Below the pieces are notes generated by a model. That model saw nothing but the letters and a program-made list of their open reading frames with translations, was not told the origin of the DNA and made no database searches. 64,000 nucleotides of DNA, taken from Vulcanimicrobiota bacterium (GTDB lineage Bacteria > Vulcanimicrobiota > Xenobia > Xenobiales > JADMJV01). Location of the stretch: the NCBI GenBank assembly GCA_019637395.1, contig JAHBVR010000008.1, positions 62,001 to 126,000 of the forward strand, written 5' to 3'. This document shows, piece after piece, positions 1,365 through 46,290 of the stretch. Numbering within the stretch: position 1 is the stretch's first letter; each line of letters starts with the position of its first letter. Both the position numbers and the translations under genes were made by a program.

Positions 1365-2990
1365 TTAGCGGCCGACGGTCTCGTAGACGCCCTGGAGGCG
1401 CCAGGGAGAGGAGCCGGCCATCTGACGGTCGGCAAGATTGGTGTCATATTCGATGGTGGAGCCGTTCTTGAGCCAAACTGCTTCACCGGAGACCGAACCG
1501 AGCAGGCGGGCCTTGTCCAACTTGGCGATCAAGTTATTCCCCTGAGCCACCATGGTCGCTTTGGCATCCGGAGCCATGGTCAGACGCGAGTAGCCGGCGG
1601 CTTTGGCGCTGACCCCGCTAACCGGTAGTCCCGTTTCGGGATCGATGGTGGTGGTGGCGGTACTGGTAGTGGTCTCCGTTTCTCCGGTGTCTTCGTCGGT
1701 GAAATAGACCTGCACCTGGGCCGGGTCTCCCTGGAAGTTGACCCGGCCACCCGAGCCCACCAGCATTTTCTTGCCGACGTAGATGACCACGTCACCGCGA
1801 TCCCAATCGTCCACTTCGATCTCGCCGTTGATCTCGAAGGTGTCGGCAAAATAGTAGCGTCCGGGTTTGAGTTTGAGCTTCTGGCCGGAGGGCACGCTCA
1901 CCGATTTATAAGCTTTGGGCTCTAAGATGGCGGTGTCCCAAACATCGTTGCCCCACTCATCTTTCCTCTTCTTGGCGGGGAAATCGCTCAGCACGGTGGT
2001 CGCCTCCGCTCTGTCATAGGGGGGGACCGCGGCTTTCTTGGCGGCCGCTACGGTGGGCGCTTTTTGTTCTCCGGTAAAATTGGTGGTCTTGGTGGGCGAA
2101 GTATCGACTCCGCTCATGGCGGTGGCCATTTCGGGATCGAGTTCCTGCAACTTTTGGCGGACGCTGGCGACTGTGGCGGCTTCGGTGTCGACACCGCCAC
2201 TTCCGTCATCCACGGTGCTGGTGGCGGTTCCCTTCACCAGTTGGGGCATGAAGACGTCGCCTTCGACCTTGGAGGTGTCGCCGATCTGCATCAAAGTGCT
2301 GGTGGCCACGTCAGCCTTGCCCTTGACCATTTTATGGTCGTCTTTCTTGTCGTCTTTGTCGTCTTTCTTATCTTCCGGGGCGGCCGGATCCGGATTGATG
2401 TAGCCGTCGTAGCTCATGGTGGATTGGTTATCCCGGGCCCAACCCTTGTACATCCAGAAATCGTAAGCGCGCGTCTTGGAGTCTCCCGTCATCAGGATGG
2501 TGGAACGGGCCGAGGCGGCGGTCTTGAAGTTGGTGGGCTTGAAGATGGCGGTTCCCACCATTCCGGAGAGGGAACGTTCGACTTTACTGTTGTCCGCGTT
2601 CTCCTCCAGGATCACGCGCGACTCGATTTTGGCGCAGTTGACGGGGATCTCAGCAGTATTGAAGCGGAGCGAAGGGCCGTCCAGGGAGCCGGCCCTGGGG
2701 GGAATCGTATTGCGCTGGTTTTTGACCGTCACTCGATAGATGAAGCCTTCTCGACCCGGTACTCGGCCTTCAAAGGTGTCGTTGTATTCCGGGAAGTTGC
2801 GCAACTTGATCATGGCGTGCTGGATGCCAGCATAGGCGATATAGCGAGAAGTTCCGGCGCCTGAAGACCAGTTGGTGGTCTTGTAGTTCTGCAGGGTATT
2901 GCTGGCGACCACCGCCGTGATAATGGCCAACAACATCGTCAGCATTAACACGGTCGCCAGTACGGAGCCTCTTTGCTGCCTGTTTCGCAT
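1365..2990 (-). CDS. PilX-like pilus-associated protein with large ectodomain
   Basis: 541 residues. The N-terminus MRNRQQRGSVLATVLMLT gives a Gly followed by a ~20-residue hydrophobic helix, as in PilX/GspK-type pilin-like proteins. The next segment (TSRYIAYAGIQHAMIKLRN) is the alpha-helical continuation typical of the family. The rest is a long exported region with a highly charged Asp/Lys tract near residues 205-222 and a beta-rich C-terminal half with repeated GDV/GEI strands (DRGDVVIYVGKKMLVGSGG). It is the last gene of a minus-strand run, 12 nt after the preceding pilin-like gene. Probably a minor pseudopilin or pilus-tip component; its ligand is unknown. It resembles the 657-residue protein at 43.2-45.1 kb in plan. 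Confidence 0.7.
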   Translation of the reverse strand: MRNRQQRGSVLATVLMLTMLLAIITAVVASNTLQNYKTTNWSSGAGTSRYIAYAGIQHAMIKLRNFPEYNDTFEGRVPGREGFIYRVTVKNQRNTIPPRAGSLDGPSLRFNTAEIPVNCAKIESRVILEENADNSKVERSLSGMVGTAIFKPTNFKTAASARSTILMTGDSKTRAYDFWMYKGWARDNQSTMSYDGYINPDPAAPEDKKDDKDDKKDDHKMVKGKADVATSTLMQIGDTSKVEGDVFMPQLVKGTATSTVDDGSGGVDTEAATVASVRQKLQELDPEMATAMSGVDTSPTKTTNFTGEQKAPTVAAAKKAAVPPYDRAEATTVLSDFPAKKRKDEWGNDVWDTAILEPKAYKSVSVPSGQKLKLKPGRYYFADTFEINGEIEVDDWDRGDVVIYVGKKMLVGSGGRVNFQGDPAQVQVYFTDEDTGETETTTSTATTTIDPETGLPVSGVSAKAAGYSRLTMAPDAKATMVAQGNNLIAKLDKARLLGSVSGEAVWLKNGSTIEYDTNLADRQMAGSSPWRLQGVYETVGR

Positions 2991-3002
2991 TCGATACCTG
3001 CC

Positions 3003-3605
3003 TTAATTGCGTGCTTTGAGCTTGGTCTTGATACTCACCAGGAACTGATTATCGCGAGACTTTGCTCCAAGTATAACATCAACTGTGGTACTTGACACTA
3101 CGTCCAGATAATAGACTCTCTTGGCAACCGTGCCCCGAGAGGCGTTCAGGTTGGTCCAAAAAGCATCATGATAATCATTGGGGATGGTGGGGGGACTGGA
3201 GACGGGCGTATCCAACCACTTTTCTTTCCGGTAGAGAGTCATTTCCTCTCCGTCGGGCGCAACATAGTAGCCGATATAGCTATGCCACTGCAGGTCGCCG
3301 CTGGCGGCGAAGGTAACCTGTCCCGCCTGGTTGCGCGCCGAGCCGAAGGTGACGAACTTATGATTATTCGTGTCGCCACGGATGGCCACTCCGTTACTTT
3401 CCAGGAGTTCCGTCACCAGCCGGCTGGTGGCGATGACGCAGGACTGCTGCAGTTCGGTGGTCATGGTGGTCTGATTCAGGTATTTTTGACAGGAGTTCAG
3501 CAATTGCGCCAGCGAGACCAGCAGTAGCGAAGTGAGCGCCAGGCTCACCACCACTTCGGCCAGTGTGAAACCGCTTCTAGAGCGATTCGCCGATGAGGGT
3601 GTCAT
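3003..3605 (-). CDS. Prepilin-type protein, PulJ/PilW-like
   Basis: 200 residues. After a short basic leader the prepilin-peptidase site is seen as RSG|FTLAEVVVSLALTSLL: Gly at -1, Phe at +1 and Glu at +5 before a hydrophobic helix. The following helix (QSCVIATSRLVTELLESNG) and length match minor pseudopilins of the GspJ/PilW type, which initiate pilus or pseudopilus assembly at the inner membrane (family knowledge). It overlaps the upstream pilin-like gene by 29 nt and is followed after 12 nt by the PilX-like gene, so the three are one translational unit. Confidence 0.8.
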   Translation of the reverse strand: MTPSSANRSRSGFTLAEVVVSLALTSLLLVSLAQLLNSCQKYLNQTTMTTELQQSCVIATSRLVTELLESNGVAIRGDTNNHKFVTFGSARNQAGQVTFAASGDLQWHSYIGYYVAPDGEEMTLYRKEKWLDTPVSSPPTIPNDYHDAFWTNLNASRGTVAKRVYYLDVVSSTTVDVILGAKSRDNQFLVSIKTKLKARN

Positions 3606-4008
3606 AGTCGATTTCTTTCAAATTGCCGAGGTTATTGGAACTCTCCGGAAAAACCACTCGGACCCGCACAGCTTTGAGTTGTCCCTTGATTTCCGAATCG
3701 ACCGCGGGCCGGGTCTCGATTTTGTAAGCATACTGGATGGATTCGGGCATACCGCGGATAGTGGTGGTGATGGTCTGGTATTGCCAGTTCAGAGCGGCCA
3801 GGGCGTCGACGCCCGAGTAGCCGACAGTGATGCAGTTCTCCACTTCCTGGCCGGCGATGAAGGTGGCGATCATGCGTGAACGGGTGGCTCCGACGGTTCG
3901 GGCATGCAGGCCCCAGATCGAGGCGACGTAGACGAGAATTGTGGAAAACAACATGCAGCCGAGAATGATCTCGAGCAAGGAAAAGCCCGATCGTCGCAAA
4001 TCGTCCAC
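3577..4008 (-). CDS. Prepilin-type protein, PilV/GspI-like
   Basis: 143 residues with a class III signal RRSG|FSLLEIILGCMLFST, showing Gly-1, Phe+1 and Glu+5. The chosen GTG at 4008 lies almost on top of a GGAGG at about 4010-4016; a TTG at 4000 would have better spacing, so the true start may be a few codons later without affecting the cleavage site. Minor pilins of this kind form the tip complex with PilW- and PilX-like partners, here the next two genes. It follows the TPR gene by 9 nt and overlaps the next gene by 29 nt. Confidence 0.78.
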   Translation of the reverse strand: MDDLRRSGFSLLEIILGCMLFSTILVYVASIWGLHARTVGATRSRMIATFIAGQEVENCITVGYSGVDALAALNWQYQTITTTIRGMPESIQYAYKIETRPAVDSEIKGQLKAVRVRVVFPESSNNLGNLKEIDYDTLIGESL

Positions 4009-15825: not shown

Positions 15826-17715
15826 TTACTTAGCAGCTTCCTCGTAGGAGTGCCCCTGCTTCTCGACGATCTCACCGGCCTTCTGGCGGTTGCGGCCCGC
15901 TTCGATCAGCTTCCAGGCTTCCGACTCCATGGTCTGGGCCCTGGCTTTCTTCTGTTCCGCTTCGGCCGTGTTGTTTTCGGCCTGTTCGCGCAGGCTGCGG
16001 GCTTCTTCGAGCATGCGGTAGCCGCGATTCTCCAGCTTCAGACCTTCCATTTCGGCGCTCAGACCGGCTTCAACTTCCTTGATGCCGGTGGAGACCTGCT
16101 TGTGGCCTTCCTCGCCGAACTGGAAGCCCTCATCGATCTTGGCCAGCCCCTGGCTTTCCTTGTCGATGGCTTTCTGCTCGCGACCCAGGCCCTGGCCGAG
16201 TTTTTTCAAGGCTTTGCGCTCATCCTGGCGCAGCCGCTTCTCCTGCTCGCGATCCTGGCCGATCTGGCCCAGCGCGTTGTCGATGCGGGCTCCGCTGGCG
16301 TCTTCGTTTCTGCGCGCCTGGCGGTAGTCGGCCAGATGGCCGCGCTCCTGGGTGCGCGCCTCGTTTTCGATCTCGCGGCCCTGATCGTAGACCTGCATGC
16401 CGTCCTCGCGAAGTTCCGTGCCTTCGTGGTTGAGCTGCAGACTGTGGACTTCGGCCTTGGCCGACTCCACGTAGGTCTTGAGGCCCGACTGCAGCCATTC
16501 GATCGACTGTGATTGAGCTTCCCGGGCATTGGCCTGATCCTGCTGGGCCTGGGCCGCCAGAGCGCTGGCCCGGGCCTGCTGGGAGGCGGCTTGTTCGCTT
16601 AAGGATTGAGCCTGTTCCGACTTGCACTGACTTTCGGTTTGCGCTTGCTGGAATTCGGCCGTTTTGGCCTGAGCCTGCTGGCGCAGTTGGGCGGCCTGCT
16701 GCAGATCGCGCTGGCCTGCCTGGATGTAAGCCATACCGCAGCAGTAGCTGCAGGGGCACATCAGCAACTGGTGGCCGTAGGCGATCGACTGGTGGCCACG
16801 CTGCTGCAGGCACTGAGCCTGGGCGTTTAACTGCTGAGCTTCGATCTGCAGGCAACCGGCTTTCTGGCCGAGCTGTTCGGCCTGGGCCCGCAGGCTGTTG
16901 GCCTGGGCCTGGTTGCAGGCGGCCTGGTTGCCGAGCTTGTTGGCTTCCTCGCCGTTGCGCGAGGCGCGCTCGCTCCACTTCTGTGATTGAGTCTTGAGGC
17001 GCTGCGATTCGTTGAGCGATTCGTGCGACTCCAGTCCCAAGAACTTGGAATCGTCGTGAGCTTGCGCTCCCCGGGCCACTTTGTCGGAACCTTGCGTGAC
17101 CACGGCTACGCCGTCGTCCTTGAGTCCGTGGGCGGATTTTTCCTGTTCCCAGGCGCCGGTGAAGCCACTGACGGCGGCGTCCTGCTTGCGCTCGGCGCGT
17201 CCTTGGGCGCGCAACTCTTGACCCAATACCTTGCGTTGCGCGTTCTTGTCCGCTTCCAGGGCGCTTTCCGCCTGGCGGGCATCGCTGAAGAGCTCAAGCT
17301 GCTTGTCCTGGTAGTTCTCGGCGATCTGCTGGCGTTTCAGGCCCGACTTGACGTCTTTTAAACCATCGTGCTTGGTGTCCAGGCCGACTTGCTGATATTC
17401 GATACCGTCGCGTATGCGGTCGGCGCCGTCGAGCTGGGCCACCTGCCCGGCCAGCACCAGACCCTGGCCGGCGTCGAGACGCTGCTGCCCCTGAGTCTGT
17501 TGGTCAGCGGCCTGTTTCAGCTGGCTGTCGGCGGTGGCCTGCTGCTGCTGGGCCGAGCTGTCCAGTTGGACAGCATCCACGAGCGTTTGAACGCCTTTTT
17601 CGGTCTGTTCAACGCCCTTCTTTTGCATTTCTTGCCCGCGTTGCACCATAGCCTGGCTCTGCACCAGCAGAACCTGCTTGAGGCGACTCAGGTCGTTCCC
17701 CTGTATGTTACTCAT
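15826..17715 (-). CDS. 629-residue Gln/Ala-rich coiled-coil protein with a central cysteine cluster
   Basis: The protein is very rich in Gln, Ala, Glu and Lys (e.g. QAADQQTQGQQRLDAGQGL) and consists of long heptad-like stretches on both sides of a central segment at residues ~316-334 that reads QLLMCPCSYCCGMAYIQAG, with four Cys in seven residues. A second Cys cluster flanks it (NQAACNQAQ, KAGCLQIEAQQ, QAQCLQQRG). The cysteines fall at the exact middle of the chain, consistent with a hairpin whose tip is a disulfide-, metal- or lipid-modified knob. There is no signal peptide or known domain. It starts with ATG 17715 and is followed after 17 nt by the unknown gene and fahA. Function is unknown. 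Confidence 0.72.
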   Translation of the reverse strand: MSNIQGNDLSRLKQVLLVQSQAMVQRGQEMQKKGVEQTEKGVQTLVDAVQLDSSAQQQQATADSQLKQAADQQTQGQQRLDAGQGLVLAGQVAQLDGADRIRDGIEYQQVGLDTKHDGLKDVKSGLKRQQIAENYQDKQLELFSDARQAESALEADKNAQRKVLGQELRAQGRAERKQDAAVSGFTGAWEQEKSAHGLKDDGVAVVTQGSDKVARGAQAHDDSKFLGLESHESLNESQRLKTQSQKWSERASRNGEEANKLGNQAACNQAQANSLRAQAEQLGQKAGCLQIEAQQLNAQAQCLQQRGHQSIAYGHQLLMCPCSYCCGMAYIQAGQRDLQQAAQLRQQAQAKTAEFQQAQTESQCKSEQAQSLSEQAASQQARASALAAQAQQDQANAREAQSQSIEWLQSGLKTYVESAKAEVHSLQLNHEGTELREDGMQVYDQGREIENEARTQERGHLADYRQARRNEDASGARIDNALGQIGQDREQEKRLRQDERKALKKLGQGLGREQKAIDKESQGLAKIDEGFQFGEEGHKQVSTGIKEVEAGLSAEMEGLKLENRGYRMLEEARSLREQAENNTAEAEQKKARAQTMESEAWKLIEAGRNRQKAGEIVEKQGHSYEEAAK

Positions 17716-19687: not shown

Positions 19688-21832
19688 ATGGGACAGACAA
19701 AGGGGACACGCAAGGGGTTCTCCCTGCTCGAGGTCGTTTTCACAGCAGGTCTGCTGGGGCTCACGGCAGGGCTCTTCATGGTCAGCGGGGCACCTCGGAT
19801 GAAAGGCAAAACCGGCGTCAAGGCGATGGCGGAAGCTCTGGCCAACGAGTTGGGGCAGGCCCGCCTGTTGGCGATGCGCCAGCTCAGTCCGGTGGCGGTG
19901 ATGTTCCCAGCCGAGGGAGGCCGCCCTCATAGCACTTCCCTCTATCAGTTGGAGGGTCTCACCTTTCCTCGGGTGACTCGCTCGCGCAGCTATGCGGGTG
20001 ACTTCCCCGGGCAGTCATTCTTTATCGGCAGTTGGGGTGCCAGCGGGGAGAGCAGTAGCGAGCTCGTGTCAGGGACCAAGTGGACTGACTTTGATGTCGA
20101 CGAGTGGCTTCCTCACGATACCGGCGATGTTCGCAAGGACGACAGCGCGCTGGTCTTTATGCCCGACGGTACCGTGCGCGGCCGCAGGGACGGTAGTGGC
20201 CTGCCTCACTTCCAAGGGGAATATCACATCGCGGTGAGTGCTGGTGTGTCTTACTCGAACAGTAACCTCAGCGCCGCCGGCGAGACCTTTACGGTTTGTG
20301 TCAACGGGGGCGGAGGCATCCGGGTGGAGTCTGGATTGGCCGGTTCCTCCATAAAGACCGTGGGCACTCAGGGCAACTCCCACCCTCCCGCCCCGGCGGT
20401 CAAGCAGACTCAGTTGGGCCACGCTATGGGAGATCCCCGAGGGAGCAGTTCTCTACCGACGGCCACCGAGGAGCGACCCACCACGATTCCTCCGGATGGA
20501 TTCGCTACCGTCACGGCTTTTGCCCAGGATGTCAACGAATCCGGGGAACGTCTCTTCTGCCGCTGGAAGGTCAATCCACCCACCGGCCGGGGCGATGGCG
20601 TTTTCTCCGTCCGAATGGAAGATGAAAATGGCAATCCTAAAGGCGCGGCCATGGACTTCAATCCCAAGGCCAAGATCCTCCAGGGAAACAGTGTGGTGGA
20701 GAAGCCTGTCTATCAGGCCAGTTATCAGTGGCACCCACCAACCGATGCCGAGCCGGGGGATGTCTTCAAGCTCAACCTCTTGCTGCAAAATCAGGCCACC
20801 GGGCAATGGTTGGACGTGGGTATACAAAAAATCGTCAAGATCGGTCCTTATGGAGATATTCTCTTTGAGAGAATTAACGGAGATGGTAGCGAGCGGGGAC
20901 TTTATCGCATGAACGCCGATGGCGGGAACAAACGCCGCTTCGAGATCGCGCCTTCGACCCCGGCTGAACCGAAGAAATTCCGCGAGTGGCACCCCGCCGC
21001 CTCGGCCGATTCCAGCCGCATCGCCTTCATCGCCAGGGCGGGCAATGGCCCGAATGACCGCCCCGGCCCCAGCGGCAACGATATTTATCTGACCGACAAG
21101 AGCGGACTCACCTGCGTTCGGGTGACCCAGGGCCTTGACGTCGAGTCGGTGGGTTTGAGCCCCGACGGCTCCCACGTGGTCTTCAAAGCCTGGGAGGGAG
21201 GTAGTTATAGCCTGTACACGGCCCCTGTCTACCCTACCAATGTGCCGCCCTACAACAACCGAAAACTGCTGGCCTCGAACGTTATGGGGATTAACAATAC
21301 ATCAGGTTTGCACCAGGTGTGTTTCCGAGAAGACCGCCTCGTCTGGACGCCCAACAATCACATTCTTTACTGCGCTCCCGAGCCCAGGCCCTGGCTTTAC
21401 AGAATTGAGGTGAATGAAAGCGGGGCCAAGACGGGAGGGCCATTCCAGGTCAACCTGCTGGAAGGTGGCACCCTGCAGGGGATGTGGAGCGCCTACTGGT
21501 CTCCTCGCTTCGGGCAGGTCTTCAGCACCATTGACAAGGGAATTGCTCTGGGTGACCCTCTGATCGGTCAGGGGGACAGCAGTGGAATCGGCAATGGCTT
21601 TTTCAGTGAGGGTGATTGGGACTCTCAGCCCAGCACCATCGAATATACGCCGGGGCAGAAGGGATTGATGTGGATACGCACTCCAACCGGCGGCACCAGT
21701 GGTCCGGAGGACAACCTGCACATCGTGATGGTGAAGAACCTTCCTCTCGGAACCAATCCGATTCCAGACCCGATCAAGCTCACCGCAGATTTGACCACCG
21801 GTAAGTCGTGGTTCCCCATCCATCTGCGCTAA
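19688..21832 (+). CDS. Prepilin fused to a TolB-like beta-propeller
   Basis: 714 residues, ATG preceded by GGAGGGAG with good spacing. The N-terminus KG|FSLLEVVFTAGLLGLTAG is a type III (prepilin peptidase) signal with Gly-1, Phe+1 and Glu+5, followed by a GspH/FimT-like domain (ALANELGQARLLAMRQLSPV). From about residue 390 onwards come WD40/TolB-like blades: GSERGLYRMNADGGNKRR, SADSSRIAFIARAGN, NDIYLTDKSGLTC, VGLSPDGSHVVFKAWEGGS. Minor pilins are normally 130-220 residues, so a propeller ectodomain is unusual and could act as a tip adhesin or assembly cap. It heads a four-gene pilin operon; its last 25 nt overlap the next gene. Confidence 0.82.
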   Translation: MGQTKGTRKGFSLLEVVFTAGLLGLTAGLFMVSGAPRMKGKTGVKAMAEALANELGQARLLAMRQLSPVAVMFPAEGGRPHSTSLYQLEGLTFPRVTRSRSYAGDFPGQSFFIGSWGASGESSSELVSGTKWTDFDVDEWLPHDTGDVRKDDSALVFMPDGTVRGRRDGSGLPHFQGEYHIAVSAGVSYSNSNLSAAGETFTVCVNGGGGIRVESGLAGSSIKTVGTQGNSHPPAPAVKQTQLGHAMGDPRGSSSLPTATEERPTTIPPDGFATVTAFAQDVNESGERLFCRWKVNPPTGRGDGVFSVRMEDENGNPKGAAMDFNPKAKILQGNSVVEKPVYQASYQWHPPTDAEPGDVFKLNLLLQNQATGQWLDVGIQKIVKIGPYGDILFERINGDGSERGLYRMNADGGNKRRFEIAPSTPAEPKKFREWHPAASADSSRIAFIARAGNGPNDRPGPSGNDIYLTDKSGLTCVRVTQGLDVESVGLSPDGSHVVFKAWEGGSYSLYTAPVYPTNVPPYNNRKLLASNVMGINNTSGLHQVCFREDRLVWTPNNHILYCAPEPRPWLYRIEVNESGAKTGGPFQVNLLEGGTLQGMWSAYWSPRFGQVFSTIDKGIALGDPLIGQGDSSGIGNGFFSEGDWDSQPSTIEYTPGQKGLMWIRTPTGGTSGPEDNLHIVMVKNLPLGTNPIPDPIKLTADLTTGKSWFPIHLR

Positions 21833-22653
21833 AGCGACGCCACGGCCTGAGCATGGCCGAGGCGATCGTAGCCATGTTCGTGCTGCTCGGCGGGTTCACC
21901 GTGATTTTCCGGCTCTTCCACACCGCCATTCACTACTCCGGTATCATTGACGCCCAACAGAACAAGGTGCGGGTAGCGCTGAACAAACTGGAAGAAGTCA
22001 GAGCCTGGAGCCGGTCTGTGCACACTCCTGTGGGATCCACCCCCTTTGACCCAATTTCTGCTGGCTGGTCGTCATGGCACAACAAATCGGGAGTCGACGA
22101 CGACTACCCGGAAATCTGCTGGAAGGTGATTGTAGAGGACTACGTACTCTACTCCCCCTGCTGGCAATTTGAGTCGATCAAATCCAGCGACCAGCGCAAG
22201 ATGGAGCGCTGCTGCAAGCAAGTTACGGTGAAGGTCAACACCACGGACCCCGAGGCTATCGGCACCGGAATGATGAATCGCCCCGTAGTTATTACTACTC
22301 TGATAGGACAACCGTCCATAGAAACAACCAACCTGACGGTCTCCGTGACGGGCAGCCCGGCCACAGTCGTCCAGGGAGGCAAAACCCCCACCTACTATGC
22401 CGTACTCAGGGCCAACGGCCATGAGATTCTTGACCCCTTCTTTCGCTGGGCCACCCTGGGTGACGCCACCGGCACCTGCCTGGAGAGTGCCACGGGCGGC
22501 AACATGACCGTGGAGCACAAGATTGCAGTTCCGAACGGCAACCCTTCCGTCATCTATAGTGTCCCGGGGGACTGCGTGCCCCGCGCCACCTGCAAATTCC
22601 GAGGCTCTACGGTGACCGGCGATGGGCCGACCATCAGCATCCAGGATTCATGA
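21808..22653 (+). CDS. Prepilin-type protein (PilV-like) with Ig-like C-terminus
   Basis: 281 residues from GTG 21808, overlapping the previous gene by 25 nt; ATG 21853 would lie inside the signal. The signal RRHG|LSMAEAIVAMFVLLGGF has Gly-1 and Glu+5, followed by a hydrophobic helix and QQNKVRVALNKLEEVRAW. The exported part contains several Cys (VLYSPCWQFES, KMERCCKQVTVKVN) that could form disulfides. A C-terminal region with TNLTVSVTGSPATVVQGGK resembles an Ig-like beta-sandwich. It is the second gene of the plus-strand pilin operon. Confidence 0.75.
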   Translation: MVPHPSALKRRHGLSMAEAIVAMFVLLGGFTVIFRLFHTAIHYSGIIDAQQNKVRVALNKLEEVRAWSRSVHTPVGSTPFDPISAGWSSWHNKSGVDDDYPEICWKVIVEDYVLYSPCWQFESIKSSDQRKMERCCKQVTVKVNTTDPEAIGTGMMNRPVVITTLIGQPSIETTNLTVSVTGSPATVVQGGKTPTYYAVLRANGHEILDPFFRWATLGDATGTCLESATGGNMTVEHKIAVPNGNPSVIYSVPGDCVPRATCKFRGSTVTGDGPTISIQDS

Positions 22654-23276
22654 GAAAAAGTGGCTTCAGCCTCCTGGAAACGCTGATCACCATCGCCCTG
22701 GTATCGCTGGTCTTCGGCATGTTCATGATGCTCTTGCGCGATTCATTCACGATCACGCGCCGCATGGCCAGCAAGGATGAACATCGGCGCGCCGCTCAGG
22801 TGGCTCTGGACCGGATGCTGACCGAAGCGCGTGAAGCCGATACGATCCAGTCTCCCGCCGTCAGCGACGACTACACTTTCCAGTTGCAGCTCTCCAAGGT
22901 CCACGAGCAGGATGCCGTCCGCTGCCCGGCTCCCCTCTCCTATCCTATCCCCGACACGAATCCGCCTGGCGCCATCGCACTGCCCGTTCCTTCAGCCAAC
23001 GCTGCGTTTGAACCCTTTAAGAACGATTACCGGCGCAAAGTCCTCTATCATCTGGAGAGCGATGGCAACCTGGTTCGGGAGGCAGGACCCTTCTCGGGTT
23101 CCTTGGGTGACCCGCTGGTGCTGGGCACCGGCCTGACCGGTCTGCGTTGCGAGTGGGATAAAGATACTCCCCTGGCTTCTCAAGAATTGTTGAAGATTAC
23201 TTTGACCTATCAGGAGGGCAATAATCCTAGACCCATCGTGGGTTTGGTGCACTGCCCGGGAGTGAAGAGGAACTGA
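22650..23276 (+). CDS. Prepilin-type protein, PulJ/PilW-like
   Basis: 208 residues; ATG overlaps the preceding TGA (ATGA). The prepilin signal RKSG|FSLLETLITIALVSLVF has Gly-1, Phe+1 and Glu+5. The helix DEHRRAAQVALDRMLTEARE and the short beta-rich rest match GspJ/PilW minor pseudopilins. It probably forms a tip complex with the neighbouring PilV- and PilX-like proteins. Confidence 0.8.
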   Translation: MRKSGFSLLETLITIALVSLVFGMFMMLLRDSFTITRRMASKDEHRRAAQVALDRMLTEAREADTIQSPAVSDDYTFQLQLSKVHEQDAVRCPAPLSYPIPDTNPPGAIALPVPSANAAFEPFKNDYRRKVLYHLESDGNLVREAGPFSGSLGDPLVLGTGLTGLRCEWDKDTPLASQELLKITLTYQEGNNPRPIVGLVHCPGVKRN

Positions 23277-23278
23277 AG

Positions 23279-23785
23279 GTGCGCCGACGCGGAATGTTGC
23301 TGGTTGTGGCTCTGCTGGTGTTGGGAGTGGCGTTGGTAGCCGGGATGGGCTTGATGACCTCCCAGATTGCCAGCTATCGTGGGGTTAGCGCTGTCGAAGG
23401 TGCCGCCCAGGCCCTTGCCCTGGCGCAAGCCGGACTCGAGGATGCCCGCCTGAAAATGGAACGGGACTACCAATTCCCGCCCCGTGGCGATGGCAATTTC
23501 ATGGAAGATACCAGTCCCAACGCCCAGGGCCAGACCCTCTTCACCTACTGTGAAGATGTCCGCGTGGGCGGTAAACGCTTCGGTTCCTATCAGGTCAGTA
23601 TCGATACCAGTTTCGTTACCGAATATAAGTTCACTCGTATCATTTCTAACGGAATTATTGGACCTTTAGAAGCTCCTATAGCCCAGCGTACGCTGAAGGT
23701 TGACATCGACACCAATGTAGGGGACGCCAGTCGCAACTCCAGCCGCTACCTGCCCATCAAGATCGAGGATATGTCAGGCCTGTAA
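23279..23785 (+). CDS. PilX/GspK-like pilus assembly protein
   Basis: 168 residues from GTG 23279, 2 nt after the previous stop. The N-terminus MRRRGMLLVVALLVLGVALV is a Gly-containing leader with a hydrophobic helix but no Glu at +5, as in GspK/PilX proteins. Next comes VEGAAQALALAQAGLEDARL, the alpha-helix found in these families. It is the last gene of the operon and ends 6 nt before the converging cardiolipin synthase gene. Confidence 0.72.
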   Translation: MRRRGMLLVVALLVLGVALVAGMGLMTSQIASYRGVSAVEGAAQALALAQAGLEDARLKMERDYQFPPRGDGNFMEDTSPNAQGQTLFTYCEDVRVGGKRFGSYQVSIDTSFVTEYKFTRIISNGIIGPLEAPIAQRTLKVDIDTNVGDASRNSSRYLPIKIEDMSGL

Positions 23786-40694: not shown

Positions 40695-42146
40695 TCAGGT
40701 GCCGCAGTATTTGCGTTGAATCTTGGTTAGTTCCACCTGAACCTCCACCAATCCCTTGAAGCGCTTGGATGGATCCTTCAGGAGCATCCGATCGATCATG
40801 TTCTCCAGTTCATCCGGCAGTTGGGATTTATATTCGCGGATGCGCGGCGGTGGTTCTTGCAGGTGCTTCATGACCAGGGTGAGCGAGTCGGCTACTTCGA
40901 AGGGGCGCCGTCCGGTGAAGAGTTCAAACATCATCACGCCCAGAGCGTACTGGTCGGTGGCCGGCAGCAGGGTTCCGCCGGTGATCTGTTCCGGGGCCAT
41001 GTAGGCCGGGGTTCCGAAGGTATCGCCGGTTCTGGTTACGTTCTCGGATTCTTCACGCTTGGCCAGGCCGAGGTCCATGACTTTTACCAGCTTATTGTCG
41101 GTGACCATGACGTTATCCGGCTTGAGGTCGCGGTGGACGATTCCCTTTTGGTGAGCATGGATAAGGCCTTGCACGATGCCCAGGGCGATGGGAATACCGT
41201 CGGGGAGGGGCATGCCTTTGCTGGGCAACATGTCGCGCAAGGTTTCGCCCTGAATGTATTCCATGGAGAGGTAGAGGATGCCGTCCTGTTCGCCGTAGTC
41301 GATCATGCGCACCACGTTGGGATGATCCAGCGTGCGTGAGATCTGCACTTCGCGACTGAAGCGGCGGCGATAGTCTTGATCTTGAGCCAGTTCCGGATTC
41401 ATGACTTTGACGGCCACGGCTTCATCCTCGTTCATGGTCAGGGTCGAGATGCCCTTGTAGACCACCGCCATGCCGCCGGCACCCAGGCGTTTGACGGTGG
41501 CCCATTCGCCGAATTGGCGGCCCAGGAAGACGTCGTTTTGAATGTCGAGGCTGCGCAGCCGAGCGTTAAATTTGGCCACTTTGGCGTTCTCCTCGCGCCA
41601 GGCCTTCTGACGGGGGACCACCACGGCGATGAGAAAAAAGGCGACGCTGCTCAGAGCGGCAACGAAACTGCCGAAGAGAATCGGGTGAAGGGTGCAGCTG
41701 TAGGCCAGGCGTTGAAAGAACGCGCCTGCTCCTGGGGCTGGTTTGAGCTGAATGGGCTCGCTGTCATGGAGGCCGGGATAATAGATAACCGGTAGAGCGT
41801 CGACACTGAGATTGGGAGTTTCGGCTGGAAAGACCTTTGGGGAAACGATTTCTTGGCGTGCCAAATACCCGTGGAAATGCGGGACTTCTGTCTGGCCTGC
41901 GGCCATCTCGCCTCCGATGTGCAGGGTAAGCCCGCTCCGGAATTTCACCCGATCTATGACGATGGGTTCATTGGCCAACCCGAGGCGTACCACATTGCCC
42001 TGATTGGAGACGGCTTCCACATAGACGGCCGCGCCCGGAGGCTCGACCCGAAATTGGAATTTCATGGGTTCCCTGGCCTGCTCGGGCAGCGTCCAAACGG
42101 ATTGCGTTAGCAAGAGTCCTAAGAATAGGACCTGCCATCGTAGCAT
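40695..42146 (-). CDS. Membrane-anchored Ser/Thr protein kinase
   Basis: 483 residues. A signal peptide (MLRWQVLFLGLLLTQSVWT) leads an exported domain of ~130 residues, a membrane helix (LFGSFVAALSSVAFFLIAVV) and a cytoplasmic Hanks-type kinase: GAGGMAVVYKG (P-loop), AVAVKVM (Lys), HRDLKPDNVMV (catalytic Asp and Asn), MDLGLAK (DLG in place of DFG), and FGTPAYMAPEQ. The extracellular part starts with a beta-rich FQFRVEPPGAAVYVEAV. It directly abuts the last pilin gene of the operon (42146/42147), so it may sense or regulate pilus assembly; that link is inferred from position only. Confidence 0.88.
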   Translation of the reverse strand: MLRWQVLFLGLLLTQSVWTLPEQAREPMKFQFRVEPPGAAVYVEAVSNQGNVVRLGLANEPIVIDRVKFRSGLTLHIGGEMAAGQTEVPHFHGYLARQEIVSPKVFPAETPNLSVDALPVIYYPGLHDSEPIQLKPAPGAGAFFQRLAYSCTLHPILFGSFVAALSSVAFFLIAVVVPRQKAWREENAKVAKFNARLRSLDIQNDVFLGRQFGEWATVKRLGAGGMAVVYKGISTLTMNEDEAVAVKVMNPELAQDQDYRRRFSREVQISRTLDHPNVVRMIDYGEQDGILYLSMEYIQGETLRDMLPSKGMPLPDGIPIALGIVQGLIHAHQKGIVHRDLKPDNVMVTDNKLVKVMDLGLAKREESENVTRTGDTFGTPAYMAPEQITGGTLLPATDQYALGVMMFELFTGRRPFEVADSLTLVMKHLQEPPPRIREYKSQLPDELENMIDRMLLKDPSKRFKGLVEVQVELTKIQRKYCGT

Positions 42147-42779
42147 CTAGTAGTGGTTCCTCTGCATAACCTTTCGAAAGAGTTCTACCACGGCGTTGGC
42201 TTTCTTGCCTGGAATCACCTTGGATAAAACGATCCTTAGCGCGTAAATTTCTCCGCCGCTGGCTGTTTCTTGATCGACCTCAAACTTGATCACCGACAGG
42301 GCATAGCTTTTCGTGCCAGGACTGGTGGCGCTGACGATGCTGATCAACTGGGCATTCGTGGGCTTTAGTGGCTGGGTGGTTTCGAAAGCTAAGGTGAGTC
42401 CGGTGGGTGGGTTCCCATTGACAAAGTTCCTGCGCCAGAGTTGCGTTTTGGCCAGATCGTGCCACCAGACCTGGAGTTTGGGGGTAAAGGAGGGCAGCCC
42501 GGAAAGCTGGGTGCTGGCAGATAGAGGATGGCAGGCCATGATCATTCCCTGGCTTCCGGAGGGCGCGATCAGCGTAACCCCGTTGGAAACCGAGCCTTGC
42601 AGATCAGTAGTGACTTGCTGCAAGGCCAACTGTCCTTGTTGCTGGAGTTCGGTGCGAATTTGCCCTTCGGCTGCGATGCGGAACGAGGGCATGATGACCA
42701 GGAACACGCACATCCCCAGTAAAAAAGTCAGGGCAATGGTGATGGTCAGTTCGGCCAGCGTAAAGCCTTGCCGTTTCAT
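42147..42779 (-). CDS. Prepilin-type protein, PulJ/PilW-like
   Basis: 210 residues. The signal KRQG|FTLAELTITIALTFLLG has Gly-1, Phe+1 and Glu+5. The helix GQIRTELQQQGQLALQQVTT and the beta-rich tail match GspJ/PilW minor pseudopilins. ATG overlaps the TGA of the upstream pilin gene by 4 nt and the stop directly touches the kinase gene. Confidence 0.8.
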   Translation of the reverse strand: MKRQGFTLAELTITIALTFLLGMCVFLVIMPSFRIAAEGQIRTELQQQGQLALQQVTTDLQGSVSNGVTLIAPSGSQGMIMACHPLSASTQLSGLPSFTPKLQVWWHDLAKTQLWRRNFVNGNPPTGLTLAFETTQPLKPTNAQLISIVSATSPGTKSYALSVIKFEVDQETASGGEIYALRIVLSKVIPGKKANAVVELFRKVMQRNHY

Positions 42780-43162
42780 CGGGTCACGTTATGCAGGTAC
42801 ATAGTGTGCACGACCTTGTTGGTGCGCCGCTGAAAATCCCAGGTCACGGTCACCGTGGCAATCTTCAGGTAGGGCTCGAGACTGGCGTCGCTTTCATAGG
42901 CGATTTCCACGGTGGGGGTGAAGTCGGTCTCTCCATAAGTCCATTTCTCGTAGGCGGGTGGCGACAGAGTGGAAACGTTGTAGAAAGAACGACTGCGCAA
43001 GTCTTCGAGAATCGCCTGGGCGCAGTTGTCGGCAATAATCTGGGTCTCGCCCCGGCGCACGGCTACGATAGACGAGGGGTAGAGGTTGGCGATGAACAGA
43101 ATGATGAATCCGAACAGGACGGATGCAAAGATCGTCTCTAGAAGCGTAAATCCGCCTCTCAT
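42776..43162 (-). CDS. Prepilin-type protein, PilV/GspI-like
   Basis: 128 residues with the signal RGG|FTLLETIFASVLFGFIILF (Gly-1, Phe+1, Glu+5), then IADNCAQAILEDLRSRSFYN. Size and pattern match GspI/PilV. Its ATG overlaps the preceding stop and its stop overlaps the next ATG by 4 nt each, so translation along the operon is coupled. Confidence 0.8.
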   Translation of the reverse strand: MRGGFTLLETIFASVLFGFIILFIANLYPSSIVAVRRGETQIIADNCAQAILEDLRSRSFYNVSTLSPPAYEKWTYGETDFTPTVEIAYESDASLEPYLKIATVTVTWDFQRRTNKVVHTMYLHNVTR

Positions 43163-45132
43163 TGCGTAACTTCGCGCCAGTAGAGTAGACGAAGGCGATC
43201 AGCCAGGTTGATGAAGTTGGAGTTGGAAAGGCCGGGGTTCAGGGTGAAGGTGACGGTTTCCCCAGGGGGGAGTGTGGAAGTTTCGTTGACGCCATCCATG
43301 TCCATGGCTATCATCGCCAAATTGTTCATATTAACGTTGCCAAGGGTCATAAACGAGTCGATCAAGGCAGTGGGACTCAGCCCGAATCCCACAAGTTGGA
43401 GGTCGACTTGGGCAAGTTCGGAGGAGCTGAGCGGGCTCCCTTTCTGCGTTTCTAATGCTGCGATAACTTCCTGTCGCACCAGGGTAAAGGGAGTGGTGTC
43501 GGTTCCGCTGTAGGTGGTGCCATGCAGGGTAATCTCTAGGTCAGCCAGACCGAGCGGGGATACGGAGGAAGGAGAGGTGGGGGGACCTTGGTAGACGTTG
43601 CCGTTCGCGTCCTTAAAAGACTCGTAGAGGCCCGGAGGGAGTTTGGCGTAGATAGGCGGCGGACCAGGGTTGGTGATTTCGCGGGCTTTGGTCTTGCCTG
43701 TGGAATCGGTGGTCTGGTAGTTTACTTTCAGGTGATATTCTTGAGTTGTTGGATCCTGAAAACGGCTTGGCGGGGCGACGATTTTGGATTGGAAGCCCAG
43801 GCTGGTCATGTCAAAATTGAAGCCCGGAATCACGATCGATTGACCCGGGAGAAACTTTGCTGGCGGGAATTCTGCAAGGTCATGTGCTCCCGCCGTGGTA
43901 ATTTTGATCTCCTTCTGGGTGCGATCCTGGATCATGTTGACGTTGGTGAACTCCACATCCTTGATCGGAGCGGCGGCACTGCCGGAGATGTCGGCGTAGT
44001 CGGCTTTGAGTTTGCCCTCAGTGTAGAGCAGGCCCGAGGCTCCCAGGTGTGAACCCGAAGTGCCCGTCAAGGTCATATCTTGCTGGGAGAGCAAGGCCAC
44101 CTTGTTGTTGCTGTTGAGCTGGCCCGTGCCGGTGATGGTCAGTTTGCCGGTGGCGATCAAAGCGCCCTCACCGCTGATGGGACCGTTCACGGTCAGATCA
44201 CCGTCGACGTAGACGATCCCCCCGTTCAGGGTCACGCCGCTGTTGAAGTCCAGTGGGCCACTGCGGTAGGCGTAACCGTCCACCTGATTGGGTCCGGAAT
44301 TGCTGGTAAAGGTGGTGACGCCAGGTTTACTGGAGGTATTGTAACTGCCGATATTAATAGTGGGGATGTGCACCTGGCCGGCGTGCAGACGAGTTTCCCC
44401 TTTGATGACCGTGCCAGTGGCAATATGGGCGCCGCCAGCCGCTTGTACGTCGCCTGTGACCAAGATGTCGGTCCCATCCAGCTTTAATGCCTCGTCTTCT
44501 GCGGAGTTGGTGGCCAGACTGCCGGGTAGGTATTGGCTGGGATCACCGAGGTCGGCCATGTCCTTGACGCTGGCCACTTTCGAATCGCCTGAGATCGAAA
44601 TTTTCCCCCCAGCGGCCATGGCGTAGGGGAAGGGGGGCACCCAAACCACCGCTTCCATACAACGCTCGATGCCATGGTCGACACCCACCGCCCGCAGATA
44701 GATGGAGTGCTCGGGGATGGTGATGTCCGTGCCGTCTATGTGGAGGGAGCTCTCCCCGCCGATGTTGTTGATAGACTGCACCATTTGGGTGTTCTTGAGC
44801 TTGGCGTTAAGGCTGGGTAACAGGGTCTGATCGAAGGTAAGTACCCCGCTTTCCACCTGGGGGTCTCCATTGGATACCGTCAGCACGCCGGGAAAAGGGC
44901 TGCTGTCATCCGGCGGGGTGTGGGCCAGGACCTTGGCCAACCCCTTGGCCAAACAATCCTCGGCCAAGTTGCGCGCAACCTGGGAGTGATGCAGGCGATT
45001 GGACACGCTTAAATGGTGAAAAGAAGTTCCGGCCACGGTCAGGCCCAGCAGTAGCAGCAAAGAGCTGGCCGTCAGAACGGTCAGGATACCGGCTCCCCGC
45101 TTTCGGGAGTGGACTTTCCAGGGCAGCTTCAT
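43159..45132 (-). CDS. PilX-like protein with a large beta-solenoid-like ectodomain
   Basis: 657 residues. N-terminus KRGAGILTVLTASSLLLLLG is a Gly-preceded hydrophobic helix, then HHSQVARNLAEDCLAKGLAK as in PilX/GspK. The exported part contains regular short beta repeats: TDILVTGDVQAAGGAHIATG, IVYVDGDLTVNGPISGEGAL, and KLTITGTGQLNSNNKVALLS, suggesting a right-handed beta-solenoid or a bactofilin-like stack. Later segments are hydrophilic and of unknown fold. Such a large tip-type protein could serve adhesion. It follows the GspF gene by 15 nt. Confidence 0.72.
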   Translation of the reverse strand: MKLPWKVHSRKRGAGILTVLTASSLLLLLGLTVAGTSFHHLSVSNRLHHSQVARNLAEDCLAKGLAKVLAHTPPDDSSPFPGVLTVSNGDPQVESGVLTFDQTLLPSLNAKLKNTQMVQSINNIGGESSLHIDGTDITIPEHSIYLRAVGVDHGIERCMEAVVWVPPFPYAMAAGGKISISGDSKVASVKDMADLGDPSQYLPGSLATNSAEDEALKLDGTDILVTGDVQAAGGAHIATGTVIKGETRLHAGQVHIPTINIGSYNTSSKPGVTTFTSNSGPNQVDGYAYRSGPLDFNSGVTLNGGIVYVDGDLTVNGPISGEGALIATGKLTITGTGQLNSNNKVALLSQQDMTLTGTSGSHLGASGLLYTEGKLKADYADISGSAAAPIKDVEFTNVNMIQDRTQKEIKITTAGAHDLAEFPPAKFLPGQSIVIPGFNFDMTSLGFQSKIVAPPSRFQDPTTQEYHLKVNYQTTDSTGKTKAREITNPGPPPIYAKLPPGLYESFKDANGNVYQGPPTSPSSVSPLGLADLEITLHGTTYSGTDTTPFTLVRQEVIAALETQKGSPLSSSELAQVDLQLVGFGLSPTALIDSFMTLGNVNMNNLAMIAMDMDGVNETSTLPPGETVTFTLNPGLSNSNFINLADRLRLLYWREVTQ

Positions 45133-45147
45133 CGTCTCTCCTCCACG

Positions 45148-46290
45148 CTAATGCATATTTTCGATCACCTGGGACATGGGAAGCATGGTGGCCAGCACCA
45201 GCGTTCCTACCATAAACCCGATGAAGGCCATTATGGCCGGTTCCAACATCGCGGTAAAGATGTCCAGTGAGTGATCGACTTCGGCTTCATACATCTCGGC
45301 AGACTTCTGTAAAAGCTGCCCGAGAGCGGCGGATTCTTCACCCGCCTGTACCATGTTTAACATAAGCTTCGGGAAAAAACCGGTGGCTCCCAGGCTGTCG
45401 GCAAAGGATTCGCCCTGATTGAGTCCCTCGCTGGCCACTTTGATGGACTCGATCAGCAGTGGGTTTTCGGTGACTTCCGCCGAGATAGGCAGAGAACTGA
45501 GCGGGTTCATGCCGCACTCGATCTGCACGCTCAGAGCTCGCGAGAAACGGGCGTAGGCCAGAGCTTTGTAAACTGGCCCAAGGCCCGGTATCTTCTCTAC
45601 CCAGGTCGCGACAAGCTTCTGGTTGTCGCGTTTGCGCAGCCAGGCGGGGACTGCGAACCACAAGCTGGTTCCGATCAAAAGTGAGCCTATGTAGAAGGCC
45701 GGACTGCGCAAGAAGGTGGTGATTTTCATTACCACCACCGTGATCAAGGGGGGCTCGACCCCGGAACCGGAAATGAGTTCGAACATTCCCTTCATGATGT
45801 ACGGAGGAATGGTGACCATCATAATGGTGGCGATGACAAAAATGAAGGCTGGATAGCCGAGGGCGCTCTTGACTTTGAGCACCAGGGCCCGTTCTTTTTC
45901 TTCATAGCGGCTCAGTTCCAGCAGCACCTGGTCGAGTAACCCGGTTTTTTCGCCCATCTGTACCAGGCGAAGTTGCAACTTGCTGAAGGCGCGTGGATAG
46001 CAATTCATGGCCGCGGAGAGGGGATAACCGCCTTGAATACGCTGGGCCATACCGCGGCAAACCTCGGCGAGTTTGGGATCGTCCGACTGGTCCGCCAGGT
46101 AGTCCAGGGACCTGTCCACAGTGACACCGGCCAGCACCATCGTCGAAAGAGAGCGTAAGAACACAGTTTTAGACTCAGGGTTCGGGCGAATTTGCTCGAC
46201 TTGGCTGAGTTTCATGTTGGGCCGCGGGGCCGCTGCCTGACGGCGCGGGCTAGTTCCGCTCACCTTTGTCGACGATAGGATGAGAGTCAT
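45148..46290 (-). CDS. Type II secretion/type IV pilus inner-membrane protein GspF/PilC
   Basis: 380 residues from ATG 46290 with GGAGG ~12 nt upstream. Two repeated GspF cytoplasmic domains (FLRSLSTMVLAGVTVDRSLD, with LVQMGEKTGLLDQVLLELS; ARFSRALSVQIECGMNPLSS, with MVQAGEESAALGQLLQKSAE) alternate with three membrane helices (ALGYPAFIFVIATIMMVTIP, YIGSLLIGTSLWFAVPAWL, and the C-terminal LEPAIMAFIGFMVGTLVLAT). GspF/PilC is the platform that couples the assembly ATPase to pilin polymerisation. No GspE/PilB ATPase lies nearby, so this system must borrow one. Confidence 0.92.
   Translation of the reverse strand: MTLILSSTKVSGTSPRRQAAAPRPNMKLSQVEQIRPNPESKTVFLRSLSTMVLAGVTVDRSLDYLADQSDDPKLAEVCRGMAQRIQGGYPLSAAMNCYPRAFSKLQLRLVQMGEKTGLLDQVLLELSRYEEKERALVLKVKSALGYPAFIFVIATIMMVTIPPYIMKGMFELISGSGVEPPLITVVVMKITTFLRSPAFYIGSLLIGTSLWFAVPAWLRKRDNQKLVATWVEKIPGLGPVYKALAYARFSRALSVQIECGMNPLSSLPISAEVTENPLLIESIKVASEGLNQGESFADSLGATGFFPKLMLNMVQAGEESAALGQLLQKSAEMYEAEVDHSLDIFTAMLEPAIMAFIGFMVGTLVLATMLPMSQVIENMH

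Follow-up and report, generated by a model that had tools for sequence, protein, structure and literature searches.

The window, a 64,000-nucleotide stretch of DNA from an uncultured Vulcanimicrobiota bacterium, holds at positions 19688-23785 four open reading frames on the plus strand, of 714, 281, 208 and 168 amino acids, whose neighbours overlap or abut. They form a tightly coupled H-I-J-K (FimU-PilV-PilW-PilX-like) minor-pilin operon headed by H, with four co-oriented minor pilin genes and a PilX-type subunit that lacks Glu5. A first-pass annotation had described a four-gene pilin operon led by a pilin-propeller fusion, and the four frames, with that of H running uninterrupted over 714 codons, agree with it. 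The features are the following:

19688..21832, +: H, modular prepilin of 714 aa, composed of GspH/FimU-like pilin, linker, Ig-like domain and TolB-type beta-propeller
19688..20332, +: H residues 1-215, class III signal and GspH/FimU-like pilin module (AlphaFold2 model, GspH match at 9-65, Glu5)
20333..20479, +: H residues 216-264, linker (low AlphaFold2 confidence, poor conservation)
20480..20845, +: H residues 265-386, Ig-like domain (Big_9/Big_7 matches in family members, all-beta model)
20846..21829, +: H residues 387-714, TolB/PD40-type beta-propeller, probably six blades (NCBIfam, PD40, PDB profile, Foldseek)
21808..22653, +: I, PilV/GspI-like minor prepilin of 281 aa (GTG start, overlapping the end of H; I profile in every complete cassette; Glu5)
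22650..23276, +: J, PilW/GspJ-like minor prepilin of 208 aa (start overlapping the I stop; prepilin domain over cut-off, with matches to ComGE/GF and GspH models; J profile; Glu5)
23279..23785, +: K, PilX/GspK-like minor prepilin of 168 aa without Glu5 (GspK, NCBIfam, E = 7.7e-5; PilX_N, Pfam, E = 0.55)

A promoter and terminator scan of the cassette gave no signal exceeding that of shuffled sequences. Other pilin clusters lie on the minus strand of the window. The second (1365-3978) encodes a K-like protein of 541 aa with a large C-terminal part, a J-like protein of 200 aa and an I-like ORF (3577-3978). The third (40695-46290) encodes a J-like protein of 210 aa, an I-like protein, a 657-aa K/PilX-like protein and a GspF/PilC protein (45148-46290), and is adjoined by a Ser/Thr protein kinase gene (40695-42146). 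A 629-aa Gln/Ala-rich, coiled-coil-like protein, encoded at 15826-17715 on the minus strand, has a syntenic counterpart beside a cassette in the related genome G002 (L063).

Architecture and fold of the H protein

H begins with a class III signal, MGQTKGTRKG^FSLLEVVFTAGLLGL, and displays the Glu5 and hydrophobic alpha1 of a modular pilin (TRKG^FSLLEVVFTAG), with a separate non-pilin module, Ig-like domain plus propeller, placed C-terminal to the pilin module past the linker. Searched by itself, the window protein gives weak matches to a TolB propeller at 404-510 (NCBIfam, E = 7e-4) and, below cut-off, to GspH at 9-65 (NCBIfam, E = 9e-4). Pfam yields only N_methyl (E = 0.2), with nothing over cut-off, and a phmmer search of the single protein against the PDB found no relative. 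As the evidence from one sequence is thin, family-level searches were needed to decide.

In a 27-member alignment of the H family, PD40 is found in 18 members (best E = 7.5e-26), N_methyl in 16, GspH (PF12019) in 10 and bacterial Ig (Big_9) in four; N_methyl exceeds the Pfam cut-off in relatives. When the family profile is compared with the PDB, its C-terminal part matches WD40 (2ymu, 4e-43) and TolB (4r40, 3e-27) structures, while the N-terminus matches the geopilin 7tgg (4e-6). Together, the domain and PDB profile matches give H the order pilin, linker, Ig-like domain, propeller. The prepilin signal (TRKG^FSLLEV, with Glu5 in 37/37 of the family) and the TolB-like propeller that the first-pass annotation assigned to H are sustained, the TolB/PD40 profile being weak for the window protein and strong for the family; its GspH/FimT-like domain is probable, given the GspH matches in 10 of 27 members. 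Its description of H as a pilin with ~300 propeller residues needs correction: the propeller is present (387-714), but the linker and a separate Ig-like domain (265-386) had been overlooked.

Structure prediction likewise returned a propeller and not some other fold. In the AlphaFold2 model of whole H (12 sequences; pLDDT 66.7), the pilin has two helices (13-33 and 40-65), a sheet extends up to residue 215, confidence is low at 223-262 and the structure is all-beta thereafter; in the disordered linker (~220-262), which is poorly conserved, pLDDT falls below 50 at 223-232 and 239-262. Residues 262-714 modelled alone reach a pLDDT of 76.8 and a pTM of 0.77; the all-beta Ig-like domain (~80-93) and the first blades score near 90 and the final blades low. 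In Foldseek searches against the PDB, the top 17 matches of the whole model (best 1.8e-11) and the top 15 of the 262-714 model (best 1.3e-10) are TolB, and a viral Foldseek search retrieved general WD40/Kelch/tail-fibre matches only. Because TM-scores to TolB are moderate (~0.5), the likeness is one of fold class only. Motif spacing and the TolB match make six blades likely, the last two or three being insecure. TolB itself, the best structural and profile match of the H propeller, is not a pilin but belongs to the Tol-Pal system, is soluble in the periplasm and has an alpha/beta domain at its N-terminus; against the TolB equivalog model TIGR02800, H scores 18.6 bits where the cut-off is 343.

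Paralogous cassettes, distribution and divergence

The genome (7.66 Mb, 36 contigs) holds about eleven paralogous cassettes, the window operon among them, a circumstance overlooked by the first-pass annotation. Ten matches to H were found there at E <= 0.01, itself included, and an operon survey added the C3 locus. H, I, J and K occur together in 11 of 11 of these loci and in the complete loci of relatives from five genera (profiles of the genome's own genes), and complete H-I-J-K loci reach G015 and G026, beyond the order. The gene order varies among cassettes, being H-I-J-K, I-J-K-H or an arrangement with H divergent. In all 37 cassettes the mature forms of H, I and J carry Glu5, whereas none of the 37 K proteins does, a pattern shared with PilX, which lacks Glu5 (PMC7541494). 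The V-, W- and X-like identity proposed for the three partners is upheld.

Outside this genome, the same fusion and four genes recur in eight related genomes, with 2-11 H matches each. The family profile detects full-length members in 9 of 149 genomes of the phylum and in the same nine among 388 genomes from 292 genera; in other genomes of the phylum the propeller part alone matches, and these are presumably ordinary PD40 proteins. A conserved peptide pattern, searched in GTDB species genomes, matches only Ca. Eremiobacterota and MAGs coinciding with this clade, and a plasmid search found no plasmid relatives of H. The pilin-propeller fusion is continuous in independent relatives (54% identity in L065/L060, 46-47% in L067/L062 and 53% in L066), a recurrence that excludes an assembly or frameshift join.

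Distance matrices for the H pilin, H propeller, I, J and K are correlated across the 37 cassettes (r = 0.78-0.86) and also among ten paralogs within the genome (r = 0.60-0.87). Since the correlation persists among paralogs of one genome, species history is ruled out as its cause and the cassette evolves as a unit. Between H and its nearest paralog in the genome, identity is 70% in the pilin and 40% in the propeller, and propeller dN is ~1.5 to 4 times pilin dN in most orthologue pairs, the C14 group being an exception. Propeller dN is well below dS everywhere; the comparison of orthologue pairs revealed no positive selection on the propeller, with dS near saturation. The propeller is thus the fastest-diverging part of H and yet under purifying selection, which fits a conserved but diversifying recognition head.

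A proposed pilus tip with a built-in head, and its alternatives

Modular pilins with grafted domains are a recognised and diverse class with 264 architectures, such as the Streptococcus sanguinis PilB pilin, which carries a vWA adhesin module, and the lectin pilin PilC (PMC8179133). Like H, they combine a class III signal and a pilin module with a bulky C-terminal functional module. The S. sanguinis proteins are polymerised by the type IV pilus machine, and their display at the tip is inferred (PMC8179133). H, whose propeller the first-pass annotation took for a potential new kind of adhesin or sensor at the pilus tip, is therefore better described as a variant of this class. It differs from the S. 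sanguinis proteins in that the graft consists of linker, Ig-like domain and TolB-type propeller, sits on an H/FimU-type subunit and recurs in ~11 cassettes per genome. Where the text of PMC8179133 names the commonest architectures, a TolB/PD40 propeller pilin is not among them, and a literature search found no report of a prepilin joined with a WD40-like or TolB propeller and nothing relevant on Eremiobacterota pilins. What is new is the combination, a FimU-type pilin with a propeller head in about eleven cassettes; modular pilins and multiple clusters were already known.

In Myxococcus xanthus, three clusters encoding PilY1 with FimU, PilV, PilW and PilX serve one machine (PMC7541494). As in the cassettes, a beta-propeller and four minor pilins form a unit, several clusters occur per genome and the PilX-type subunit lacks Glu5. 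In contrast, PilY1 is encoded apart from the pilins and has a seven-bladed propeller of the PF05567 family (PMC13190605), whereas the H propeller is TolB/PD40-like and covalently part of a pilin. PF05567 matches neither the window H nor other members of its family. No PilY1 over the PF05567 cut-off was found in 148 genomes of the phylum, an absence that is provisional because the search had no positive control; a divergent PilY1 could have escaped it.

The machinery for such pili appears to be present as a complete, retractile type IVa system. One locus encodes PilQ, PilM, PilC and PilT together with PilO/PilN-like and PilD-like proteins (assigned from sequence and position alone), and PilB is encoded elsewhere on the same contig. 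The genome shows an unusual expansion of pilus parts: it has about 43 GspF/PilC proteins and 53 N_methyl matches, and 11 of its ATPases exceed the curated cut-off for the PilT family; full PilB/GspE proteins number about eight and strong secretins three.

Most likely, H is a modular minor pilin that joins the pilus tip complex with a PilY1-like binding head of its own. Further, the operon probably encodes a complete type IVa priming and tip complex with this head built in, the ~11 cassettes providing alternative tips. H, as the FimU-type subunit, would bear an extracellular head made of an Ig spacer and the TolB-type propeller, so that a binding domain supplied separately by many bacteria as PilY1 would be a covalent part of the pilin. 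PilD would cleave H after Gly10, and I, J and K would complete the complex, with the Glu5-less K on top. This complex would prime a filament in the shared machine (PilB/C/M/N/O/Q, PilT) and pass out through the secretin at the end of the pilus; during retraction by PilT, the propeller would hold on to a surface or ligand. The paralogous cassettes would then differ in binding specificity. The H/FimU-type subunit is thought to act as an adaptor that links the tip subunits to the rod (PMC8897410), which makes the base of the tip complex a likelier site for the propeller, projecting on its flexible ~45-residue linker, than the last subunit. Several considerations count against this model. One is that adaptor position below the tip. 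The extra module of ~450 residues may be in steric conflict with the secretin channel or with the filament, and the propeller could be relaxed and not selected for binding. Some cassettes adjoin PilC/GspF genes, and the ~43 PilC/GspF proteins argue that at least some have private assembly platforms, against one shared machine.

The propeller may serve adhesion, sensing or another function. If it bound a ligand or felt load, the cassette could provide the input to a circuit that senses surfaces or ligands and in which a linked histidine kinase and response regulator alter gene expression. For four of the genome's 11 cassettes a HisKA kinase gene lies no more than 2 kb away, in some cases with BTAD-output response regulators, and HisKA-type kinases adjoin cassettes in relatives too. 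Among the 15 kinases of the genome most closely related to one cassette kinase, itself included, a GspF/PilC gene lies no more than 6 kb away for 10 (against 1.1 expected, p = 9e-9) and a propeller pilin for four (against 0.3 expected, p = 2e-4), counts inflated by one because the query was picked for its place beside a cassette. The linkage is, however, stronger to GspF than to the propeller pilin, the kinases could merely control cassette expression, and no such kinase adjoins the window, C18 and C15 cassettes. The window cassette being without one, the kinase link holds for a subset of the family, and a sensory circuit is an unlikely account of the operon.

The four subunit types and their order are equally those of GspH-I-J-K of type II secretion systems, where K likewise lacks Glu5, and sequence matches fit either set. 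The cassette might thus be a minor pseudopilin set whose propeller recruits secreted substrates in the periplasm, in a genome that has a type II secretion locus and many GspF proteins. That locus (GspD, E and F), however, is separate and includes its own longer GspK of ~325 aa, so the cassettes are not its only source of K. The window cassette is unlinked to it. Type II GspH has no propeller, and type II GspK, of ~300 aa, has an extra domain for which the cassette K proteins, mostly ~155-175 aa, leave no room; the K of the window has 168 aa. Eleven cassettes face three strong secretins, and the numerous PilT-family ATPases point to retractile pili, which leaves a pseudopilus improbable.

It is very improbable that the pilus uses the propeller to attack polymers, as an enzymatic or glycan-processing head of a lyase, peptidase-associated or sugar-binding type. 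In profile and fold it weakly resembles the oligogalacturonate lyase 3pe7 and the propellers of DPP4/S9 peptidases, but S9 peptidases require an alpha/beta-hydrolase domain that H lacks, and the best match is consistently TolB, a non-enzymatic interaction propeller. An annotation or assembly artefact joining pilin and tolB-like genes, suggested by nothing beyond the weak family scores of the window H, is almost certainly wrong, as the fusion is continuous in nine independently assembled genomes and ~ten paralogs.

The preferred reading, a pilus tip with a built-in head, touches on two wider questions: what keeps PilY1 propellers in place at the tip of the pilus, and what purpose several minor-pilin clusters serve in one cell. 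A single-chain pilin-propeller with cognate I, J and K lends itself to structural study as a complex, and the eleven paralogs of this genome are a natural experiment in tip specificity. With H, the modular pilins gain a propeller architecture, and the cassettes suggest that these uncultured Vulcanimicrobiota (Ca. Eremiobacterota) live in frequent contact with surfaces or cells. A bolder proposal, which we hold to be speculative, combines a PilY1-less lineage, covalent pilin-propeller heads and about eleven exchangeable tip cassettes per cell, several with their own two-component system and assembly platform, into a combinatorial apparatus for surface recognition and sensing.

Verru_Chthon cassettes (TIGR02596-TIGR02600), which we take to be multi-copy four-gene cassettes with prepilin-type proteins, were considered as relatives and rejected, the TIGR02596 match reaching 16.1 bits against a cut-off of 70; we know of no propeller in these models.

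In the C7 cassette of the genome (L050 6445-8654, minus strand), H is split over two frames, although its orthologs L077 and L078 are intact, and a pseudogene or a sequencing error would explain this. Near the C3 cassette (L055 2-1549, minus strand) lies a second, shorter H-like pilin of 508 aa, with GspF, kinase and regulator genes between. In G026, from a different family of the phylum, two tandem propeller pilins occur with one common I-J-K set (L104 5215-9802).
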